A stretch of DNA of 49,629 nt from an uncultured Caryophanales bacterium (GTDB lineage: Bacteria; Bacillota_I; Bacilli_A; Acholeplasmatales; Anaeroplasmataceae): positions 1-49,629 of the forward strand of contig CAMOUK010000008.1 of assembly GCA_946626535.1 (NCBI GenBank), read 5' to 3'. Both the position numbers and the translations under genes were made by a program. The notes under the pieces are model-generated. The model did no database searches. It was not told where the DNA came from and saw nothing but the letters and a program-made list of their open reading frames with translations. The number at the start of each line of letters is the position of its first letter. Position 1 is the stretch's first letter. Below, in pieces: positions 16,941 to 48,842 of this stretch.

Positions 16941-19900
16941 ATGAAAAACAAAAAAATGTCGCGTCGTCTAATGGGTGTCGCATTATCTGGCGCGTTACTA
17001 ATATCACTAAGTTCATGCGGTGGTAACAAGACTACTACTGGGAATCTAGACTGGGAATCTGTTTACCTTTCTAGCGGTAGCTATAATGTTACAACAGGTG
17101 AGCTTTGGGATACTCTTCAATGGAGTGCCTCAACTAATCTAACTAACCAAAAGAACACTGTAGTTTTAGATAAGTATGTTAACAAAATCACAGCAGCGAT
17201 GAAAAATGATATCAGTGCATTAACAGAGGATGAAAAGAAATTATTTGCTGAAGGCGAATATGGTCCATTCTCTAATCATGCAAATCAAAGACTTGCTGAC
17301 TATGTAGTTCAAGACATCTTAAACTTATCTTATAGCACACAAGACTATTGGGAAGAGGTAGACAAGGTTTCCGATAAACTAAAGAAAGAATTAATAGTTA
17401 AATATGTTGATGAAATGTTTACTAGCTATGGTTATTCTCTTGATGCTGATGAGATAACTAATAACCTAGCAAACAAGAATAACTCATATTTTACTGATTT
17501 AGCAAAAAAAATGAGTGAGGTTTATTTCATCAACTATGCAAAAGAATTACTTGCAGAGGCAAAAATAACTAAAGATGTTACAGAGGCAGATAACAACGAC
17601 ACAAATGCCGATGATGATAAGATTGGATATTTCTCAAAATCTGATTTCAAATCAAAATTTAAAGCTAAATATGAAAAGGAATACAATGTAAATGCTATTT
17701 TAATGCGTTTTGCAGATAGCGATGAATTTAATGAAACATTTAGAGCATTCGGCTTAAAGGTTTCAAATTCAAAGATTTACTTTGTAGGAGATTCAGAAGA
17801 AACTGGAAAGATGACTTACAATGAGTATTGTGATTATTATGATGATTTAACAACTACTCAAACAAGAACTAAGTTAAATGTTTCTGAAAGCTTCTCTCCT
17901 GCCATTTTAGGTATCTATGTTGAAATGTATAACTATATTTACGGTGGCTATAGAAAAACATTAAGCACAGCTCTTGAGACTTCTGCTGATCCAACAGTAA
18001 TCGATAGTGTTACTAAGGTAAATGAGCTTAACGATTTAAGAAAGCTTACTGAATATGTATTACACAATTTCAATCAAACAGTATATGATCAAACAGTTAC
18101 ATTATTAAATACTAATAATCAAACTCAAACATTATATTCTTCAAAGGATATCGAAAAGATTGGCACTGGTTTCAAAACTTATATTTATGAAACATTAGAT
18201 TTAAAGGGTACAAATTATTCAACTTCTTCTCAAAGCTATAACAGCAGCCAATATATCGCATTTAAGTTTGGTGAAGAAGCTCATGATGAAAGCTTTGATG
18301 ATTATACAGATGATGATATCATTACATACATTTTAGATGATGCTCAAAAGGATCTATTCAATGAATTACATTATCAATTAATTCGTTCAAAGATTACTGA
18401 TTCAAATATCACTAATTATCTAAAAGAAGAAACTGATAACTGTAAGGTCAAGATTTTCAACGATCCTGTAGAAATTTCTTATTCAGTTTCTAACTCTAAC
18501 TATTCTAAGACAGTTGATAAGGCTCCATCTTCTAACACATTAGCTACTATCGAATACGATGGTAAGACATGGAATGTAAATGTAACAGCAAATCCAGAGG
18601 ATTCTTCTTCTGTTAAGGTTGCAGGTAAAACTGCTGACCAAGCTTACTATGGCTTATTTGATGAATTAGAAAAGGCTAGTGGTAAGACAACAGCTATCGA
18701 TTTATTATGTAAAAAGATGGTTAAGAATTCTGAAGCTTATAAGAAACTATTAGATGATAAGGATAGATATGATTTATATGTTAAATATATTGAAAATCTA
18801 TTATATAACTTCTCAAATGGTCAAGCAGGTTATGATTCATCTATTGGTAAATATAATTATTTAATGTTAAACTTCCATAATGCTAACATCGATGAGATCG
18901 TTAAGGATGTTTACCTTGTTCAAGCAGCTGAGGTTCAAGTATTAATTGATTATTCTTCAGATGATATCGTTAACTTTATTAAGCATTATTCAGACATTGC
19001 ATATAACAACTACTTCTCATTAAGTGGTAAGAGAGTATTAGTATACTTAGATTGTGATGATGATGGTGAGGCTGATGAAATTCCAGCTGATACTACAAAT
19101 TACGAATATAAGACTTGGTCAGATAAGCCAAATGTAGCAATCGACTTAGATGGCGATGGCGTATATGATGATGTTACTTATGAAGAAATTGCTAAGTATC
19201 TAATATATACAATATATAATGAAGTATCAGCTTCTACTGAAACTCACTCAACTTATCTATCAACATTAGTTGATGAAATTAAAGGTAGTGCTAAGGTAGA
19301 ATATGATTCAAACCCAATTTTAGAAGAAAATAAATGGGCTAAATATCGTAAGGTTGGTTTAAATGTTTCATTAACAGATGTTAGTGCAACTAATACATCA
19401 ACTGATATCGACTTCAACCTAAAGCAAAGATTATACGATTATTCTCGTGGTTATTCTGAAGATGATTTAGGAAACGAAACAGCTCATTATCAATATTTCA
19501 TCGGTGATACTACTCCTACTGAATATATTGAACCACTTTCTACTACAGCAATTAATACTAATGATAGCCAAATCGTTAAGACTAAGGATGGCTTCAACCT
19601 ATTATTAGTTTCAAAAGGTGAAAAGCAACCATCTGCTTTATATTCTGTTGATGATCATGACAATGATTTATTAAAGAATATCGTATTTAAGTATAATGAT
19701 GAATTCATCGTAGTTCCAAATGTATTTAATGAAAAGTCAGATAACGATATGCTTAACTTCAACCAAATTAAGACTTATTTATTAGAATCTGTTACTAAGG
19801 GTACAGCTACTCTTCTTCCAAGTGATGTTTCAGATGCAGTTTCTAAATTCTTAAATCCTGTAGTAACAAGATTAACATCTGATGAAACACAATTAGTTCT

Positions 19901-20108
19901 AATTCTTGAATTCATCAAATCAACTGGTACAAATTATACATTTGGTTCGACTGACAAGGATAAGGATTTTGGAAAGCTTGTTGATATCAATAAGAACAAA
20001 GCTGATAGCTATCTATATCTAGTTGAAGATGAAGATACAACAGGTACATGCAATAGCTTCCCTGAATGGTGGACTAAATTAAATGAATTAATTGGAGGTA
20101 ATAACTAA
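16941..20108 (+). CDS. Giant lipoprotein, PrsA/parvulin-like with EF-hand-like insertion
   Basis: No close named homologue is recognised. The signal peptide ends LSSC at about Cys27. The long middle is highly charged and helical, like the SurA/PrsA chaperone part; the N-terminus (YNVTTGELWDTL) echoes the VTKxxLYxxL segment of PrsA foldases. Around residues 670-705 the order helix, SSDDIVNFIKHY, then KRVLVYLD matches the entry into a parvulin domain. It is broken immediately by two acidic calcium-loop-like motifs, DCDDDGEADE at about 704 and DLDGDGVYDD at about 735. KDGFNLLLVSKGE at about 880 corresponds to the usual parvulin end (GYHIIkv). The domain spans about 190 instead of about 95 residues. 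It is translationally coupled to the next, similar gene. A secretion foldase role is inferred. Confidence 0.7.
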   Translation: MKNKKMSRRLMGVALSGALLISLSSCGGNKTTTGNLDWESVYLSSGSYNVTTGELWDTLQWSASTNLTNQKNTVVLDKYVNKITAAMKNDISALTEDEKKLFAEGEYGPFSNHANQRLADYVVQDILNLSYSTQDYWEEVDKVSDKLKKELIVKYVDEMFTSYGYSLDADEITNNLANKNNSYFTDLAKKMSEVYFINYAKELLAEAKITKDVTEADNNDTNADDDKIGYFSKSDFKSKFKAKYEKEYNVNAILMRFADSDEFNETFRAFGLKVSNSKIYFVGDSEETGKMTYNEYCDYYDDLTTTQTRTKLNVSESFSPAILGIYVEMYNYIYGGYRKTLSTALETSADPTVIDSVTKVNELNDLRKLTEYVLHNFNQTVYDQTVTLLNTNNQTQTLYSSKDIEKIGTGFKTYIYETLDLKGTNYSTSSQSYNSSQYIAFKFGEEAHDESFDDYTDDDIITYILDDAQKDLFNELHYQLIRSKITDSNITNYLKEETDNCKVKIFNDPVEISYSVSNSNYSKTVDKAPSSNTLATIEYDGKTWNVNVTANPEDSSSVKVAGKTADQAYYGLFDELEKASGKTTAIDLLCKKMVKNSEAYKKLLDDKDRYDLYVKYIENLLYNFSNGQAGYDSSIGKYNYLMLNFHNANIDEIVKDVYLVQAAEVQVLIDYSSDDIVNFIKHYSDIAYNNYFSLSGKRVLVYLDCDDDGEADEIPADTTNYEYKTWSDKPNVAIDLDGDGVYDDVTYEEIAKYLIYTIYNEVSASTETHSTYLSTLVDEIKGSAKVEYDSNPILEENKWAKYRKVGLNVSLTDVSATNTSTDIDFNLKQRLYDYSRGYSEDDLGNETAHYQYFIGDTTPTEYIEPLSTTAINTNDSQIVKTKDGFNLLLVSKGEKQPSALYSVDDHDNDLLKNIVFKYNDEFIVVPNVFNEKSDNDMLNFNQIKTYLLESVTKGTATLLPSDVSDAVSKFLNPVVTRLTSDETQLVLILEFIKSTGTNYTFGSTDKDKDFGKLVDINKNKADSYLYLVEDEDTTGTCNSFPEWWTKLNELIGGNN

Positions 20109-23011
20109 TGAAAAAAGCTAAAAAAGTTTTATTACCTGCACTTCTAATTACTACTACTCTTACATTAGCTTCTTGTGGATTTTCAAGAAACACTACAGTT
20201 CCATATGGTAGCTTAAACCTAAATGATACAATCGCTACAAGCTCTAAGGATATTAGCTTATCCTTAGATGCTTACTATGCAAAACTAAGAAATGGCGGAT
20301 ATGATTTAGTATTTAACAAAATCAAATCTGCACTATATGCTGACGAAATTGATGCTGTTAAGGCTTTACTTGCATCAAATTCAATCAATGATTTAACTGA
20401 TAAGCAAAAGAAAGCTTTAAGCTATAAGGCTGATGAAGCTATTACAGCTGAAAGATATGAAGATTTAAAGGATAAATATATTGAATCAATTTCTAGTTCA
20501 GTATGTTCTTCTATCGTTGGTAATAGTAAATATTCAAAATATAAGAGTATGATTGCTGATGATGGCAAGGATTACGAAACTGCAGTTTATAAATACGTAG
20601 AAACACAAAACATGGCTGGATATAATATCACAGCTGATGATATTAAAATTTCACAAGATGCTGATGACAAGGAAAAAATTGTTGTTGACTTCAAGAAAAT
20701 CTATACTGCATGCCCTGATTTATTCGAATCATATGTTCTAACAGATGCTGAAAGAATTCATGCATCTAAGGGCTTATATGAAATAGCTGACTTAGAATAT
20801 ATCGAAAATGAAGAATCTGGTCAAAAGGAAAAGAACTCAAATTATTTATTTAAAGATTCTAGATATGAAACTAAATATGAATCATCATATAAGAACTATG
20901 GTGAATATAAGGCAATTGTTATCTCATTTGATTCTCGTAGAGAAGCAATGAATACAATTTCTACAGTACTTGGTTCTGCAAATACTTCAATTGAAGATTT
21001 AGATGATTATCTAAATATCTACAATTACTACTACAAAGCACGTCAAGAAAACAATCAACCATTTACAGCTGATTCTGAAGTATTCAAATACACAGTTGAT
21101 GAAAATGGTGATAAGCTAAGTGATGTTTCTTCTTCTATCGCAACATTAATTGAAGAAACATTAGAAGATGGCGAATTCTTAACTGAACCAAGATACATCA
21201 ATGGTAAATATGTTTTAGCTTATAGAATTAGCACAGTATATGAGGTTAGCAATTCTGCTACTCAATATGATTTTGAAGATTTAAAGGTTGAATTATCAGA
21301 AGATAAATATAACGAATTAATCAACAAGATTAAGGTTGATTTATTAGATGATAACACTCCTGGTTATGTTACTACTTCATTCCAAAAATTATTAAAGGAT
21401 GCAAAAATTGAAATCTATGATCCAATTTTTGAAACAAAGTTTAATAACTCTTATACTAACTACTATGATTTAATCTCTTCTGACAATCAAAATGTTGGTA
21501 AGAATTTAATCTTTAAAGTTAATGATATTACTTATACAGTTGAAGACTTCTATGCTTTAGCTTCTGCTAGACTTGGAACTTCAATTATCAACAACTACTT
21601 CTTAAATGCTTATGCTAGTAAGTATGTTGATGACCTATTAGACGATGATACAAAGAATTCTAATAGTGATACTATAAAGAATGCTGTGTCTTCATTCAAA
21701 TCAAATTCTAACTCAACATATCCAAGTGATATGGGCTTAGAAAACTTCTTAGTTGCAAGCTATGGTTTTAAGACTGAAGATGAAGCTTTAAGAAACTTAA
21801 ATGCTTCTACAGCACTTTCTAAGTATCGTTCACAATCTTACTTTAAGGAGTGGGCTGTTAAGGACGAAGAAAAGTCAACTAGCGAAAAGACAGTTTATAA
21901 GATGAGCGAAGATTGTGAAAAGGTTATGAATAAGCTTTTAGCTACTGGTAACTCTACATATGATGATATCTTTAGCATTACAATCAATCATATCCTAATC
22001 TATATCGACACTAATGGTGATGGTAGTCCTGATAATCCTCAAGAATTCTTAAGTAAGTATCCTGATCAAGAACAAAATCTAAAGGATGCAGTTCAAGCAT
22101 TAGCTCAAGCAATCTATGCTGAAGCTATCAATGCTGATTATAAGGGTAATACAAAAAATAAGATTTTATCTTACATTGTTAACCAATATAATAAAGGTGC
22201 TAAGCTAAGAGCTGGCGATGTTAATGGTGATGGTGTTGCTGATACTTGGGATGATTACAAATCTGACTTCCACTTCATTATCAAGGCAGAAGATTTAGGT
22301 GAATCTACTCAAGAATCAATTTCAAATTATGTAAAGCCATTCCAAGAATATGTTAAGGATATGTATGCTAAGGCTGTTGAAACAGATGTTGATTCAAATG
22401 AAAATTGGGATTCAACAAATGGTGTATTCTTCACTCCAACTGATGGTATATTAACTACAGCTGATGATAAGGCTAAAGTAACTTATGATTCATTATGTGC
22501 TACAGAATATGGTTATCACCTAATCGTTTTAACTAAGTATTCTGGTGCTGATTCATTAGTTTATAATGCTACTGAAGATCCAAACGGATATCAATCAGCT
22601 ATCGAATTATTAGTATATGAAGATGAAAATGACAGCAATAACAATATCTATATTACTACAAATTCTTATAATGAAACATCTGCTAAGGCAGCTACATTAA
22701 ATCAATTATTAATTTATTACATTGAATCAAAGAATGGTTCTAATACTTCATTAGATTCAGATATCACTTCAATGCTAAAGACATTATTTAGTGACGTTAT
22801 TTCAATGTATAATTCTTCTAATTTCCAAAACTTAGTATTATTAGATGAAATTAACATTACTTCTACTGATGCTGATATTACAAAGAAGGTTTCATTACAA
22901 CGTCAAAACTATGTTAACCTAGTTACTAACTATGGTGAAGATGATAAGCTATATGGCACATGGGTTGATGTAGCAAATCATTCAACTTGGGTTAGACCTA
23001 ACCAAAAGTAA
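20108..23011 (+). CDS. Giant lipoprotein, second PrsA/parvulin-like protein with EF-hand-like insertion
   Basis: This is the partner of the preceding gene, overlapping it by one base (TAATG) with GGAGG inside the upstream gene. The signal peptide ends LASC (Cys22). A long charged helical region is followed by INHILIYID at about 627-634, a good match to the first parvulin strand (HILV). Directly after it come the acidic loops DTNGDGSPDN (about 634) and DVNGDGVADT (about 704). EYGYHLIVLTK at about 799 matches the parvulin C-terminal strand. The architecture is the same as in the upstream protein, so the two are probably paralogues. If active, it would be an extracellular prolyl isomerase or chaperone stabilised by calcium; neither activity nor calcium binding is shown by sequence alone. 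Confidence 0.72.
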   Translation: MKKAKKVLLPALLITTTLTLASCGFSRNTTVPYGSLNLNDTIATSSKDISLSLDAYYAKLRNGGYDLVFNKIKSALYADEIDAVKALLASNSINDLTDKQKKALSYKADEAITAERYEDLKDKYIESISSSVCSSIVGNSKYSKYKSMIADDGKDYETAVYKYVETQNMAGYNITADDIKISQDADDKEKIVVDFKKIYTACPDLFESYVLTDAERIHASKGLYEIADLEYIENEESGQKEKNSNYLFKDSRYETKYESSYKNYGEYKAIVISFDSRREAMNTISTVLGSANTSIEDLDDYLNIYNYYYKARQENNQPFTADSEVFKYTVDENGDKLSDVSSSIATLIEETLEDGEFLTEPRYINGKYVLAYRISTVYEVSNSATQYDFEDLKVELSEDKYNELINKIKVDLLDDNTPGYVTTSFQKLLKDAKIEIYDPIFETKFNNSYTNYYDLISSDNQNVGKNLIFKVNDITYTVEDFYALASARLGTSIINNYFLNAYASKYVDDLLDDDTKNSNSDTIKNAVSSFKSNSNSTYPSDMGLENFLVASYGFKTEDEALRNLNASTALSKYRSQSYFKEWAVKDEEKSTSEKTVYKMSEDCEKVMNKLLATGNSTYDDIFSITINHILIYIDTNGDGSPDNPQEFLSKYPDQEQNLKDAVQALAQAIYAEAINADYKGNTKNKILSYIVNQYNKGAKLRAGDVNGDGVADTWDDYKSDFHFIIKAEDLGESTQESISNYVKPFQEYVKDMYAKAVETDVDSNENWDSTNGVFFTPTDGILTTADDKAKVTYDSLCATEYGYHLIVLTKYSGADSLVYNATEDPNGYQSAIELLVYEDENDSNNNIYITTNSYNETSAKAATLNQLLIYYIESKNGSNTSLDSDITSMLKTLFSDVISMYNSSNFQNLVLLDEINITSTDADITKKVSLQRQNYVNLVTNYGEDDKLYGTWVDVANHSTWVRPNQK

Positions 23012-28244: not shown

Positions 28245-29744
28245 CTACTCCACACAAATTTGTAAAATATTATCTAAATTCTTAATTACATAATCAGGCT
28301 TTTCTTCTAAAAGCTTATCTACTGATTCAGAATATAATACCGCAACAGTTTTAACATTGGCATTCTTACCTGCAATAATATCATTTGGATGATCTCCAAC
28401 ATATATTGCGTTTTTAGCATGTAATTTTTCTACTGCCATAAGTATTCCATCTGGAGCTGGCTTATGATTTTTAACATCATCACAGCCAATAACTAAATCA
28501 ACGTAATCGATAAGACCACAAACCTCTAAGCCTCTTATTACTAAATCATCCTTCTTTGATGAAACAATACCTACTGCATATCCGCTATTATGTAGCTTCT
28601 TTAAAGTAGCCTTTGCATTAGACATTGGGCTTATCATCTCATCATGATTTGCCTTATTATAGGTTCTATAATAATCAATCATATCATTAATTTCTTTTTC
28701 ATCATTTGAATATTTAGAAAATGTTTGAACAAGTGTAGGTCCAAAAAATGATTTTAATTCCTCATCAGAAAGCTTATAGCCAGGTCTAAATTTTTCAAAT
28801 GTATAGACGAAGCTCGAATAAATTAATTCCTTAGAATCTATTAAAGTACCATCTAGGTCAAATAGGACTGTATCAATCTTATTCTCCTTATAATAATTTA
28901 ATAAATCAAGATAGCTTTCCTTTGGTCCAACAAATCTTTTTATAACTAAGAATGCAATACCACATAAGATAAATATGATACTCCACATTAAAGATACTAA
29001 TATATTCATGCCAAAGATATTAATTGTTAAAACCTCTTCAGCACCACTTTGATTTCTAAGTAGCTCTGTAAATATTCTAACTGTGCCATACCATACTAAA
29101 TAAAAGCCCATTAAATCGCCACTATTTAGCTTTTTAAACTTTCTTCTTGCTACAAGCATTAATACTAAGCCAACTAAATTTAATAATGATTCATATAAGA
29201 ATGTAGGATGACGATATGCTCCATTGATATACATATTTTCAGCAAGCCATGGGAACCATGTTATTGCTGAAGGATTTTGAATAATTGGACCATATAATTC
29301 GTGGTTACAGAAGTTTCCCCATCTACCACAAATTTGACCAATTAAGAAGCCTGGAGCGACTAAATCTAATATCTTATATAATTTAATCTTTCTAACTCTA
29401 CAGTAGATATAAACAGCTATTAAAGCAAATATTACACCACCCTGGATAGCTAAACCTGCAAGGCCATTATCATCTACACCTATTATTTTAGTAAATGTCC
29501 AATTAATTTGGCCTATAGTATTTATGACATACCAAAGTCTAGCACCAACAATAGCACAAGGTAAAACAATGATAACACCAGTTAAAACATGATCTGATGG
29601 TACACCTAATTTTTTACCTTCTTTAATTCCTACTAATACTGCAATAACAATACCAATAAGAATACAGATTGCGTACCAAGCTATTGATATATTACCAATT
29701 TGAAAAGTTGATTTAATCCATAAACCAGATGAACTACCGTGCAT
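28245..29744 (-). CDS. lgt-ppaX: Fusion of prolipoprotein diacylglyceryl transferase (Lgt) and pyrophosphatase PpaX
   Basis: Residues about 1-280 are Lgt, the membrane enzyme that attaches diacylglycerol to the lipobox cysteine. Several spans are visible, with GQICGRWGNFCNHELYG (signature, Arg141) and VRIFTELLR near the end. The position of the family's functional His (His103 in E. coli) is Gln101 here (GLAIQGGV). Residues 291-499 are a HAD phosphatase closely resembling Bacillus PpaX: FDLDGT (nucleophile Asp296), ELIYSSF, FFGPTL, YRTYN, GIVSSK, DDVKNHKPAP and GDHPNDIIAGKNA. The two are separate genes in the Bacillus hprK-lgt-ppaX cluster. The HAD part would face the cytosol. The reading frame is continuous through the junction. 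It overlaps hprK by one base. Confidence 0.93.
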   Translation of the reverse strand: MHGSSSGLWIKSTFQIGNISIAWYAICILIGIVIAVLVGIKEGKKLGVPSDHVLTGVIIVLPCAIVGARLWYVINTIGQINWTFTKIIGVDDNGLAGLAIQGGVIFALIAVYIYCRVRKIKLYKILDLVAPGFLIGQICGRWGNFCNHELYGPIIQNPSAITWFPWLAENMYINGAYRHPTFLYESLLNLVGLVLMLVARRKFKKLNSGDLMGFYLVWYGTVRIFTELLRNQSGAEEVLTINIFGMNILVSLMWSIIFILCGIAFLVIKRFVGPKESYLDLLNYYKENKIDTVLFDLDGTLIDSKELIYSSFVYTFEKFRPGYKLSDEELKSFFGPTLVQTFSKYSNDEKEINDMIDYYRTYNKANHDEMISPMSNAKATLKKLHNSGYAVGIVSSKKDDLVIRGLEVCGLIDYVDLVIGCDDVKNHKPAPDGILMAVEKLHAKNAIYVGDHPNDIIAGKNANVKTVAVLYSESVDKLLEEKPDYVIKNLDNILQICVE

Positions 29745-45119: not shown

Positions 45120-48100
45120 TTAATCAGTTGCAGGAACTGCAAAAATTGCAAATTGTGCTGATAACCATTCAGTAGTTAAAATAAATCTTTCATTTGTTGA
45201 ATCATAGCCTAAAACAGCAGTAACTCCATCTATACCAAATGTACTATAATAATTTCCAATTTGTTCACAAGCCATGAAGGATATGTTATCAATCATGCTT
45301 GCATCTAGACTGAAGCATAATGCTTCAGTTGTTGAATAGCATATTTCATAAGTTTCTTTATTATAAGAAATATAATATTTTACATCTTCTCTTAATACAT
45401 ATAATTTGTAATATATATTTGTACATGCTTCTGAAAATTCTGTTGCAGGAATTACTTCAATTACTTTTTCAAAATGTAGCTTTTCAAAAACTGCATTTTC
45501 GCCAGTCTTTAAATAAGTTCCATTAGTTGAAGTATATGAATCATAAGCTCCGTTTGCTACATCTGTTAAGCATAAATTATTCTTTAAATCAACAATTAAG
45601 AACTCTCCAGTTTCAGTAATGTCATCTAAAGATTCAACTTGCTTTACAGTTGTTTCAGTCATTTTAACTGGTTTTACATATTTATATAGAGGTAATGGAG
45701 TTATATTTGAAGTGCTAGGTGGAATAATCTTATGATTATTGCTATCATATCCCAAGTATACCCACACACCATCAATAGAAAGAGGTGACATTAAAGTATA
45801 TTCTACGTCAGGGTTTTGGTCTACCACATATAAATATGCCTTTCTTCCACTATTTATATATCCCATAAAATATGATGATGTTGTTGAGCTATAGATAAAT
45901 TCATTATTTACCTTATCATATACTAAATAATATTTTACATCATCTCTTAATACATAGATTTCATAATAATCATCATTATTTTTTTGTGAATGTCTTACAA
46001 AATGTAGCGCTTCATATTCTCCACCCTTACTGATAGATAAGACATTAGTTTCGCTATCAATTTTATAAATTGCTTCATTCTTATCTGTTAAGCATGAATT
46101 TGAATTAGGATCTAACAGTAAGCATGAATCTTCTTCTGTAATTTTTTCTAAATCACCCACAAGCTTATAAGGTGCTTCTTCCATTTCAATTTGAATTTCA
46201 AGCTTATATAGAAATTGGAATGAAGCTCTCTTATTATCAATCATAACAAATTTAGAAGCTTGTGAATCATAAGCTAAATACCACCATGTTTCATTAGTAT
46301 AAAGAGATGTTGGATTTCCTTCATCATTTAAATAACCAAATTTAATGTAGGTAGTTCCATCAGATTCTACTTCAACAAAATAATAACAATCAAGGCTAGT
46401 TGTAAATGTTATACTATAATCTTCACTTGAATAAGACATATAATATTTTACATTATCTATTAATACATATATTTCGTAATAATCTCCTAAAACACTTGTA
46501 TGCTTAGCAAAATACATTGGTTCAAATGAAGCATCCGCGCTAATTTGTAAATCATATAACCATAATTCAGCTTCTTCATATTTACCACCATTTAAATCAG
46601 TTAAGCATTTCTTATTATCAAGATTAACTAATATATATGTATGGTATTTATCAATTTGGTCAATACCATATACCTTTTGATATTCACTTGGAATCATTTG
46701 AACTTCAGTATTTCCACCTTCATCAGGTGTAGCACCTTCAATATCACAGAATCTATATAAAACTATTGGTTGTTGACTGCCTATTGAATAAGTACGCCAG
46801 TTACCAGAATTATATTGTAATGCATTATTATCGTAAGTTAATATGATATTTCCTTGGCTAAATTGAACAGTCCATAATGTTTTAGTATTACGAGCTAAAT
46901 CCTTCTTAGCACCACCATAGCCATAATAAACCTTTTCATCAGATTGTAACTTATACATATAATATCCATTACCTGATTTTTCAAAATAGAATGAATCTAT
47001 TTGATATTCTCCCACTTGAGATGATGGAGTGCTTTCATCAAATTCTAAAACGCCGTTAACAGCTCTTAAATAGCCACTACCAGAATATGTTCTAGTTGAT
47101 GTACCAGTTCCATAAACTAACTCATATTGATTACCTTCAACAATTCCGCTATATGTAGTTACTTGTTGCCACTTTGCAGTTTTTGAATTAATCATGTCAG
47201 CAGGTGCATAGTTAGCATAATAATCTTGATGATTAAAATTATCAACAACTGGATCTACTACATCTCCTCCAGTGCCACCTTGACCTTCGACGATATTAGC
47301 ATCAAAGCCATCAAATGTTACAGTTGGAGCTGTTGAATAAGAAATTGAAGCTATTCTTCCTTCAGCATTAAATCTATTAGACCATGTACCGTTATTTAAA
47401 TATTCAATAAATGTATTATAGTGGTCATCTGTATAAATACATACAGGTGAGCTGTCATAGCCTGTAGCTGTCCAGCCTCTTTCCCATACAACAACACGAC
47501 CAACTCCACGTGATGACGTAGAATATGAACCATCTACATCTATATCTAATTCATAATAAACACCATTGCCATACCATGGAATAGCTCTACAATATCCATC
47601 GGTTCTATCATATTCTGAAACCTTTCTAGTACTTGAACCAAATGTAGATTGAATACCATTTACATTCTTAGAATAATTTGCAGGCCATCTTTTGAATAAT
47701 GTGTAATAGATACATACTTCTAAAGGATCTGTAATAGTCGCATCATCTTTTACTTCTGAATGCTTTTTAACATAATCAGCTGTATAATATGTAAATTCTT
47801 TTGTTTGAGTTACTTTATATTTATGTGTTGCCTCATCATATTCATAAGCGATAGGAGCTGTAATCTTAGACTCTCCAGCTACTAAGCTCTTATTATATGT
47901 TATAGGATTAATTCTTGTTTTACCTTCTCCTGAAGTTTGTTCGTAAACAGGATTTGTTGTTGAACTATTATCATAATCAATACTAAATGATGTAACATAA
48001 CAAGTATAGTCGCCCGAATTAATACTAAAATATTGATACATTGATAAATTAACATCAATTGTTTCAGTTGCCTTGGTTGATGTAGGCTCTAAGAAATATA

Positions 48101-48842
48101 CATAATCTAAACAGTTATCATCCTTACCAAATCTAATATTTGGCTTAGTTGGAGTTGCAGTTTCAGGTGAAGTAGCAGTATATGTAATTTCAAACTTATT
48201 AATTCCACCAAATGGAGTTACATTGAATAAGCCGCCTTCTCTTCCATGATATAATGTCTCATTATAATGTGAATTATCAGGCCTAATAATTACTGAGTCA
48301 CTATTCTTACCATATCTATAGCAAGAATATTTAATACCATCAATAGTTGTACCTTCACTTGAATTATTGAAGTTAGTTTCATATTTACCAGTTGCAAAGC
48401 TACTAGCATTAGCTGTTGTATGCTTAGCACTTGTATGAGAATCCTTACTAAATTCTAAATTAGTAGGAATATATAAGCCATTTTCAACAACACCATATTC
48501 AACATTTGGGTCTAAATTATTCTCTTCCCACTTAGCATAAATAGATATATTAGAAGTTATCTTAGTATCAAAATTAAACTTAGTTGTTAATGCCCGGTCA
48601 CTATACCAGCCCATAAAATTATAGCCAGCTCTAGTAGGATTATTTACATTGCTTAACTTATTTCCTTCCTTAACTTCTATTTCTTGATTGTTTGAGCCAT
48701 TGTTTAAAACAAGTGTTACCTTATAGGTTGTATCAACAACACCACTTGGATCTCCACCATCTGGAGTTTTCTTATCACAGGCTACAAAGCTAAATGATAA
48801 TATTAATAATACTATTATTAATAACTTTTTAAATTTCTTCAT
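45120..48842 (-). CDS. Giant lipoprotein: InlB-type repeat, barnase-like RNase domain, tandem C-terminal modules
   Basis: The lipobox is FVAC with Cys22. Residues about 39-106 are an InlB B-repeat (Listeria-Bacteroides repeat: AGYNFMGWYSD, then ISIYAKWEE). A beta-rich module (about 120-290) follows. Residues about 375-482 match barnase-type RNases: VCIYYTLFKRWPANY, YYELDI with Glu431, RGVGR with Arg445 and Arg449, and TDDHYNTF with His474. These correspond to barnase Glu73, Arg83, Arg87 and His102, so the active site looks intact. A Gly-rich linker (about 519-528) leads to a diverged module (about 560-698) and three tandem modules (about 725-882, 896-1056, 1070-1236) sharing YYxxYVLxDxVKYY and a late YLGYDS. 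No barstar-like inhibitor gene is adjacent. An extracellular RNase or toxin role is inferred. Confidence 0.82.
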   Translation of the reverse strand: MKKFKKLLIIVLLILSFSFVACDKKTPDGGDPSGVVDTTYKVTLVLNNGSNNQEIEVKEGNKLSNVNNPTRAGYNFMGWYSDRALTTKFNFDTKITSNISIYAKWEENNLDPNVEYGVVENGLYIPTNLEFSKDSHTSAKHTTANASSFATGKYETNFNNSSEGTTIDGIKYSCYRYGKNSDSVIIRPDNSHYNETLYHGREGGLFNVTPFGGINKFEITYTATSPETATPTKPNIRFGKDDNCLDYVYFLEPTSTKATETIDVNLSMYQYFSINSGDYTCYVTSFSIDYDNSSTTNPVYEQTSGEGKTRINPITYNKSLVAGESKITAPIAYEYDEATHKYKVTQTKEFTYYTADYVKKHSEVKDDATITDPLEVCIYYTLFKRWPANYSKNVNGIQSTFGSSTRKVSEYDRTDGYCRAIPWYGNGVYYELDIDVDGSYSTSSRGVGRVVVWERGWTATGYDSSPVCIYTDDHYNTFIEYLNNGTWSNRFNAEGRIASISYSTAPTVTFDGFDANIVEGQGGTGGDVVDPVVDNFNHQDYYANYAPADMINSKTAKWQQVTTYSGIVEGNQYELVYGTGTSTRTYSGSGYLRAVNGVLEFDESTPSSQVGEYQIDSFYFEKSGNGYYMYKLQSDEKVYYGYGGAKKDLARNTKTLWTVQFSQGNIILTYDNNALQYNSGNWRTYSIGSQQPIVLYRFCDIEGATPDEGGNTEVQMIPSEYQKVYGIDQIDKYHTYILVNLDNKKCLTDLNGGKYEEAELWLYDLQISADASFEPMYFAKHTSVLGDYYEIYVLIDNVKYYMSYSSEDYSITFTTSLDCYYFVEVESDGTTYIKFGYLNDEGNPTSLYTNETWWYLAYDSQASKFVMIDNKRASFQFLYKLEIQIEMEEAPYKLVGDLEKITEEDSCLLLDPNSNSCLTDKNEAIYKIDSETNVLSISKGGEYEALHFVRHSQKNNDDYYEIYVLRDDVKYYLVYDKVNNEFIYSSTTSSYFMGYINSGRKAYLYVVDQNPDVEYTLMSPLSIDGVWVYLGYDSNNHKIIPPSTSNITPLPLYKYVKPVKMTETTVKQVESLDDITETGEFLIVDLKNNLCLTDVANGAYDSYTSTNGTYLKTGENAVFEKLHFEKVIEVIPATEFSEACTNIYYKLYVLREDVKYYISYNKETYEICYSTTEALCFSLDASMIDNISFMACEQIGNYYSTFGIDGVTAVLGYDSTNERFILTTEWLSAQFAIFAVPATD

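Follow-up and report, generated by a model that had tools for sequence, protein, structure and literature searches.

Barnase and barstar are a textbook pair, and Glu60 of barnase itself reads guanine. Barnase residues 57-60 form the guanine-binding loop, which also contacts Asp35 of barstar, and barnase changed at E60 still holds the inhibitor through its backbone (PMC11408511). Enzymes of the N1/T1 superfamily, which includes barnase and binase (PF00545), yield 2′,3′-cyclic phosphates and then 3′-phosphates (PMC5021464, PMC8837141). Bacillus pumilus, the producer of binase, is reported to be without barstar (PMC8837141). The same source also lists B. licheniformis as barstar-less, contrary to PMC5021464, which reports that in this species a barstar orthologue shares an operon with the RNase. 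The Izemoplasmatales, nucleic-acid feeders within or near the Bacilli, have exported nucleases and 5′-nucleotidases and in this resemble the proteins described here (PMC10470597, PMC8289736); a cultured strain grew better with DNA and RNA (PMC10470597). The H. nucleasis locus encodes a ribonuclease that is extracellular, and also a nucleoid-associated protein; the word “barnase” is absent from the text of PMC10470597.

We analyzed a stretch of 49,629 nucleotides from an uncultured Caryophanales bacterium (the “window”). An ORF with an ATG start at 45120..48842, on the minus strand like all features of the protein given below, encodes a putative exported lipoprotein of 1,240 residues. Its residues 1-22 (48777..48842), read by eye in the translation, comprise a signal peptide and a lipobox-like FVAC at residues 19-22. 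Thus, the protein has the signal peptide and lipobox cysteine of a bacterial lipoprotein by pattern only, and the first position of the motif is weak; LAAC, LGAC, LASC, and ISAC occur near the N-termini of close homologues. An InlB-type repeat follows at residues 40-104 (PF09479, 61.6 bits, cut-off 27; 48531..48725), and in combination these features bear out a preliminary description of the gene as a 1,240-residue lipoprotein with such a repeat. Next are a predicted beta-sandwich resembling carbohydrate-binding modules (residues ~136-292, 47967..48437), an extension at residues 305-372 (47727..47930) with conserved R310, P313, G323, K348, Y352, and Y353, and the barnase-type RNase core at residues 373-483 (47394..47726). 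The RNase domain is internal, with about 750 residues behind it. These include an all-beta module of predicted strands (residues ~565-700, 46743..47150), a beta-trefoil-like module (~724-882, 46197..46673), an all-beta module that is possibly trefoil-like (~893-1059, 45666..46166), and a further beta-trefoil-like module (~1064-1238, 45129..45653). No clear equivalent of the extension ahead of the core was seen among the 15 small barnase-type enzymes compared; a built-in regulator is conceivable.

Upstream of the lipoprotein gene is the C-terminal piece of a TPP enzyme, and downstream of it a sugar-nucleotide dehydratase gene. The intergenic gaps of 104 and 158 bases are too small to hold a barstar gene, in agreement with the earlier statement that no inhibitor gene is adjacent. 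Elsewhere in the window, one ORF at 28245-29744 (minus strand) encodes a prolipoprotein diacylglyceryl transferase, the kind of enzyme that would lipidate the RNase lipoprotein, fused to a HAD-type hydrolase. At 16941-20108 and 20108-23011 (plus strand), two very long ORFs (1,055 and 967 aa) abut each other; neither had a Pfam match at E 1e-10.

The preliminary description placed a barnase-like domain at about residues 375-482 and proposed a profile search as a check. PF00545 matched residues 413-480, scoring 25.8 bits for the whole protein and 26.7 bits for the cut-out piece (curated Pfam cut-off 24), and the motifs that had been quoted are located as claimed. A profile of the window domain and its relatives, hereafter the branch (34 rows), matched a profile of small barnase-type enzymes (15 rows) at 99.1% (E 1.7e-18, hhalign). 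In this alignment Glu431 (47550..47552), Arg445 (47508..47510), Arg449 (47496..47498), and His474 (47421..47423) fall on the catalytic columns of the small enzymes, corresponding to barnase Glu73, Arg83, Arg87, and His102. Searched on its own, the branch profile ranked barnase/binase first, but weakly (E 0.0081, two short stretches), and the single cut-out piece had no match to PDB sequences at E up to 10. The catalytic quartet is invariant in 72 of 72 rows, as are Thr471, Asp472, Asp473, and Tyr475. It is also kept in all 162 de-duplicated rows (130 close relatives including the window protein, four intermediate, 16 small, and 12 distant), among which loci L001-L063 are not independent evidence for this conservation because they were located with patterns covering parts of the catalytic motifs, and the 12 distant rows (L068-L079) come from profile matches instead.

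Pfam recognizes the domain in part of the branch only. PF00545 was matched by 24 of the 41 rows of set A1 at E 0.001, and among ten relatives searched against Pfam it was over the cut-off in two and below it in three, with no row in five. A structure model of residues 100-520 had a pLDDT of 85.1 and a pTM of 0.83, and the helix and strand order fits that of barnase. Foldseek and VIA-align searches with the two-domain model returned lists filled by sandwich and other unrelated folds. Barnase was not among the best 50 matches listed in either search; as the sandwich filled those listings, this does not indicate a differing fold. We conclude that the window domain is a real member of the barnase family.

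A search with the whole protein recovered 71 relatives of 693-1,890 residues, a range that does not show the true spread since the search rule limits lengths to 0.55-1.75 times the query (~680-2,170). With the domain alone as query we found 19 proteins of 110-335 residues (bounded by the same rule), many of which lie on short contigs and may be fragments. Scanning species genomes, we located 63 loci: 47 belong to the branch (four of these, L044-L047, are intermediate or partial) and 16 carry small secreted barnases. By record title the loci are mostly from Bacilli, Erysipelotrichaceae, Bacillales, and Clostridia, many from ruminants. The record of L008 is titled Gammaproteobacteria among relatives from Bacilli and is perhaps a misbinned contig. 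In the order of genome G001, the branch profile matched 83 of 196 genomes, many of these matches being distant; L068-L079 are 12 places taken from the 83 genomes and are mostly more distant proteins. The setting had been called unusual for a barnase relative. The long context is real, but within its own lineage it is not unusual, given the 71 long relatives and the 83 genomes with a match, and further long exported proteins contain the domain, mainly in Bacilli and Clostridia of the rumen and gut. Among the papers listed by searches of one open-access library, none dealt with barnase-type domains in lipoproteins of this kind or with their fusion to phosphoesterases.

The branch separates from the small barnases in a tree with an SH-aLRT of 99. 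The 99 tree rows were binase, 25 proteins chosen from 91, and 73 of 77 locus rows, the other four having domain letters identical to a retained row. The branch row set drew on 33 of the 47 branch loci, and 15 of the 16 small barnases were used (L054 was left out). Of 133 close relatives (not de-duplicated), 62 have an N-terminal lipobox as judged by a loose pattern, 57 have a hydrophobic N-terminus lacking one, nine have neither, and five lack a start. One of the nine is masked by X and the other eight, of 180-335 aa, come from the search with the domain alone.

Branch domains resemble barnase and binase in the profile match, the catalytic Glu, Arg, Arg, and His, the Tyr after the His, and export. 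They differ in being embedded in a long lipoprotein, in the extension before the core, in longer loops, and in the lack of Glu60 and the Ile-Gly-Gly-Asp stretch preceding it. The small secreted barnases of Clostridia and Coriobacteriales (L048-L063) have the same catalytic columns as the branch, but their ORFs are 138-260 aa long (one is cut by a contig end), and all 16 have an acidic residue (Glu or Asp) at the Glu60 place and a barstar in the genome.

In the window protein, hhalign placed Cys418 (47589..47591) at barnase Glu60, and a joint MAFFT alignment with binase agrees; a Glu60-type glutamate, as in guanyl-specific RNases, is therefore not present. The distance from Gly416-Tyr417 to Glu431 equals in length the Asn-Tyr-Glu-Gly-x-Leu-Pro stretch of L049 up to its Glu. 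None of the 130 close relatives is acidic at this place, which is Ala, Val, Met, Cys, Ile, or Gly (MAFFT with binase). One scan pattern spans the Glu60 stretch, so 41 locus rows are biased at this column, but 69 and 19 database rows found without that pattern agree. The four intermediate rows have Thr or a gap (acidic in 0/4), and binase, unlike the branch, keeps the glutamate. Two other candidate marks of the branch were rejected: Lys27 is kept in 58 of the 128 rows with the Pro anchor, and at Arg59 the small, barstar-bearing forms mostly have Tyr (13/16).

We searched for barstar (PF01337) in 61 genomes for the 63 loci, omitting L006 and L025 (contig names share the prefix of L002 and L004). 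No barstar was detected in the 45 branch genomes at E 0.01 (genome completeness not stated), whereas it was over the cut-off in all 16 genomes with small barnases. The missing inhibitor is thus not peculiar to the window locus. However, the tree needs a single change between the two groups, and the contrast counts as one event rather than 61 independent ones. Within the order of G001, barstar was over the cut-off in one of 196 genomes, and this one is outside the 83 with the domain. Two further genomes matched below the cut-off, one of them (G158) domain-bearing, where the match has 16.6 bits and lies within a 562-aa frame. One recurrent family of small neighboring ORFs was found, at six loci that all have a small barnase; these ORFs coincide by position with the barstar matches and serve as an internal control. 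Across branch loci L001-L047 there was no recurrent small neighbor family. Ten small ORFs (60-130 aa) are within 300 bases of the RNase gene at 9 of the 47 loci, belong to no recurrent family, and could in principle include an inhibitor. Export alone may protect the cytoplasm, and binase of B. pumilus is a reported precedent for secretion without barstar.

Given that barstar is missing and Glu60 replaced, the branch enzymes probably cut with a different or broader base preference. That they would bind barstar more poorly is a guess. Because the guanine-binding loop is also a docking site of barstar (PMC11408511), the loss of specificity and that of the inhibitor are possibly linked. Against such a link, barnase with an altered E60 retains barstar (PMC11408511), binase has the glutamate without a known barstar, and 7 of the 12 distant rows retain a Glu60-type Glu in an order almost devoid of barstar. 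Where the residue is kept with barstar nearly absent, the inhibitor may have gone before the loop changed. A broader version, in which a whole barnase-type branch gave up guanine specificity and barstar to become the RNA cutter of modular surface machines, some perhaps running from RNA to nucleoside in one chain, is one we regard as doubtful.

Six relatives carry Metallophos (PF00149) and the 5′-nucleotidase C-terminal domain 5_nucleotid_C (PF02872) in the same chain as the RNase. Three (P0022, P0024, and L012) were found in our own scan, with 5_nucleotid_C of L012 below the cut-off, and three (P0021, P0026, and P0027) in precomputed domain annotation. In all six the best NCBIfam match is a 2′,3′-cyclic phosphodiesterase/3′-/5′-nucleotidase subfamily, far under its cut-off. 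Metallophos was matched by only 4 of the 41 rows of set A1, and neither family was detected in the window protein by the Pfam scan. The fused phosphoesterases could take the RNase products further. Among 20 neighbor genes scanned, an Endonuclease I gene is immediately before the RNase gene of L014. At L010 (1160-3879) and L018 (3873-6534), tandem pairs of branch RNase genes directly follow a PF04245 (NA37) gene, to be compared with the nucleoid-associated protein of the H. nucleasis locus (PMC10470597). Other scanned neighbors (such as RuvB, a lipid acyltransferase, and an SNF2 helicase) suggest no function.

Nucleotide synthesis genes are scarce in branch genomes, which fits scavenging: purM was over the cut-off in 6 of 45 (and split into two pieces in one more) vs. 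12 of 16 among the genomes with small barnases, whereas for pyrB the counts were 6 of 45 and 13 of 16. RF39, an order of Bacilli, is known for genome reduction and auxotrophy (PMC6784871). Within the order of G001, 3 of the 83 genomes with the domain and 6 of the 113 without it have purM, taking the genome samples of the two counts as the same (the listed handles agree). As purM is about equally rare in both, we rejected purine auxotrophy as specific support for RNA feeding; the lack of purine synthesis runs through the lineage, with or without the domain. Bmp-type (nucleoside-binding) proteins are rarer in branch genomes (21/45) than in the others (15/16) and were not informative as support.

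Three roles had been offered for a surface RNase: feeding on RNA, acting on neighbors, or serving a biofilm. RNA feeding is the best supported, by the six phosphoesterase fusions and the quartet kept in every row, and we assign a probability of about 0.62 to a surface-tethered RNase that scavenges external RNA as a nutrient. The lipoprotein would be exported and lipid-anchored, and its beta-sandwich and trefoil-like modules may keep it on glycans or debris. The core would cut RNA in two steps, to a 2′,3′-cyclic phosphate and then a 3′-phosphate, with Glu431 as the base and His474 as the acid. Phosphoesterases at the surface, which in some relatives belong to the same polypeptide, would go on to free nucleosides and phosphate that the cell can take up. 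No barstar was detected in the 45 branch genomes, and the guanine-binding Glu60 is replaced. The CBM-like and trefoil-like modules, and the Big and InlB-type domains that occur among the relatives of set A1, would also suit a biofilm or matrix enzyme that trims or binds extracellular RNA for structural rather than nutritional ends. We consider this rather unlikely, as the nucleotidase-type fusions point to full RNA breakdown and the invariant quartet argues against a pure binder.

Barnase-type domains are known toxin tips, and in 105 of the 133 relatives no more than 40 residues separate the RNase from the C-terminus; the proteins are long, modular, and probably surface-exposed. An antagonistic or defensive RNase, aimed at neighboring cells or phages by lectin-like modules, would account for this arrangement, but it is an unlikely reading of the window protein, in which the domain is internal. 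Action on neighbors also finds little support in the branch genomes, all 45 lacking a detected barstar. The 12 Pfam families in the 41 rows of set A1 include no recognized toxin-delivery domain, though Invasin_D4 occurs in two and a pilus-formation domain in one. Thus, of the marks of a polymorphic toxin, we found no Pfam delivery domain, no room for an adjacent immunity gene in the window, and no recurrent small neighbor at L001-L047. The rewritten base-reading loop, never acidic at the Glu60 place in close relatives, and the conserved extension added before the core raise a further alternative, that the core acts on a different substrate, for example modified RNA or nucleotide-linked polymers. 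This too is unlikely, as all catalytic residues are kept and fit ordinary RNA.

The lack of a detected barstar across the branch genomes, the rewritten guanine-binding loop, and the phosphoesterase fusions go beyond the preliminary description. A large natural branch with a kept catalytic site, a replaced loop, and no detected inhibitor would open two questions to experiment, namely what determines base preference in the fold and under which conditions a secreted RNase requires an inhibitor inside the cell. Such a branch could likewise serve as a molecular handle on the use of RNA by uncultured, genome-reduced Bacilli of the gut and rumen.
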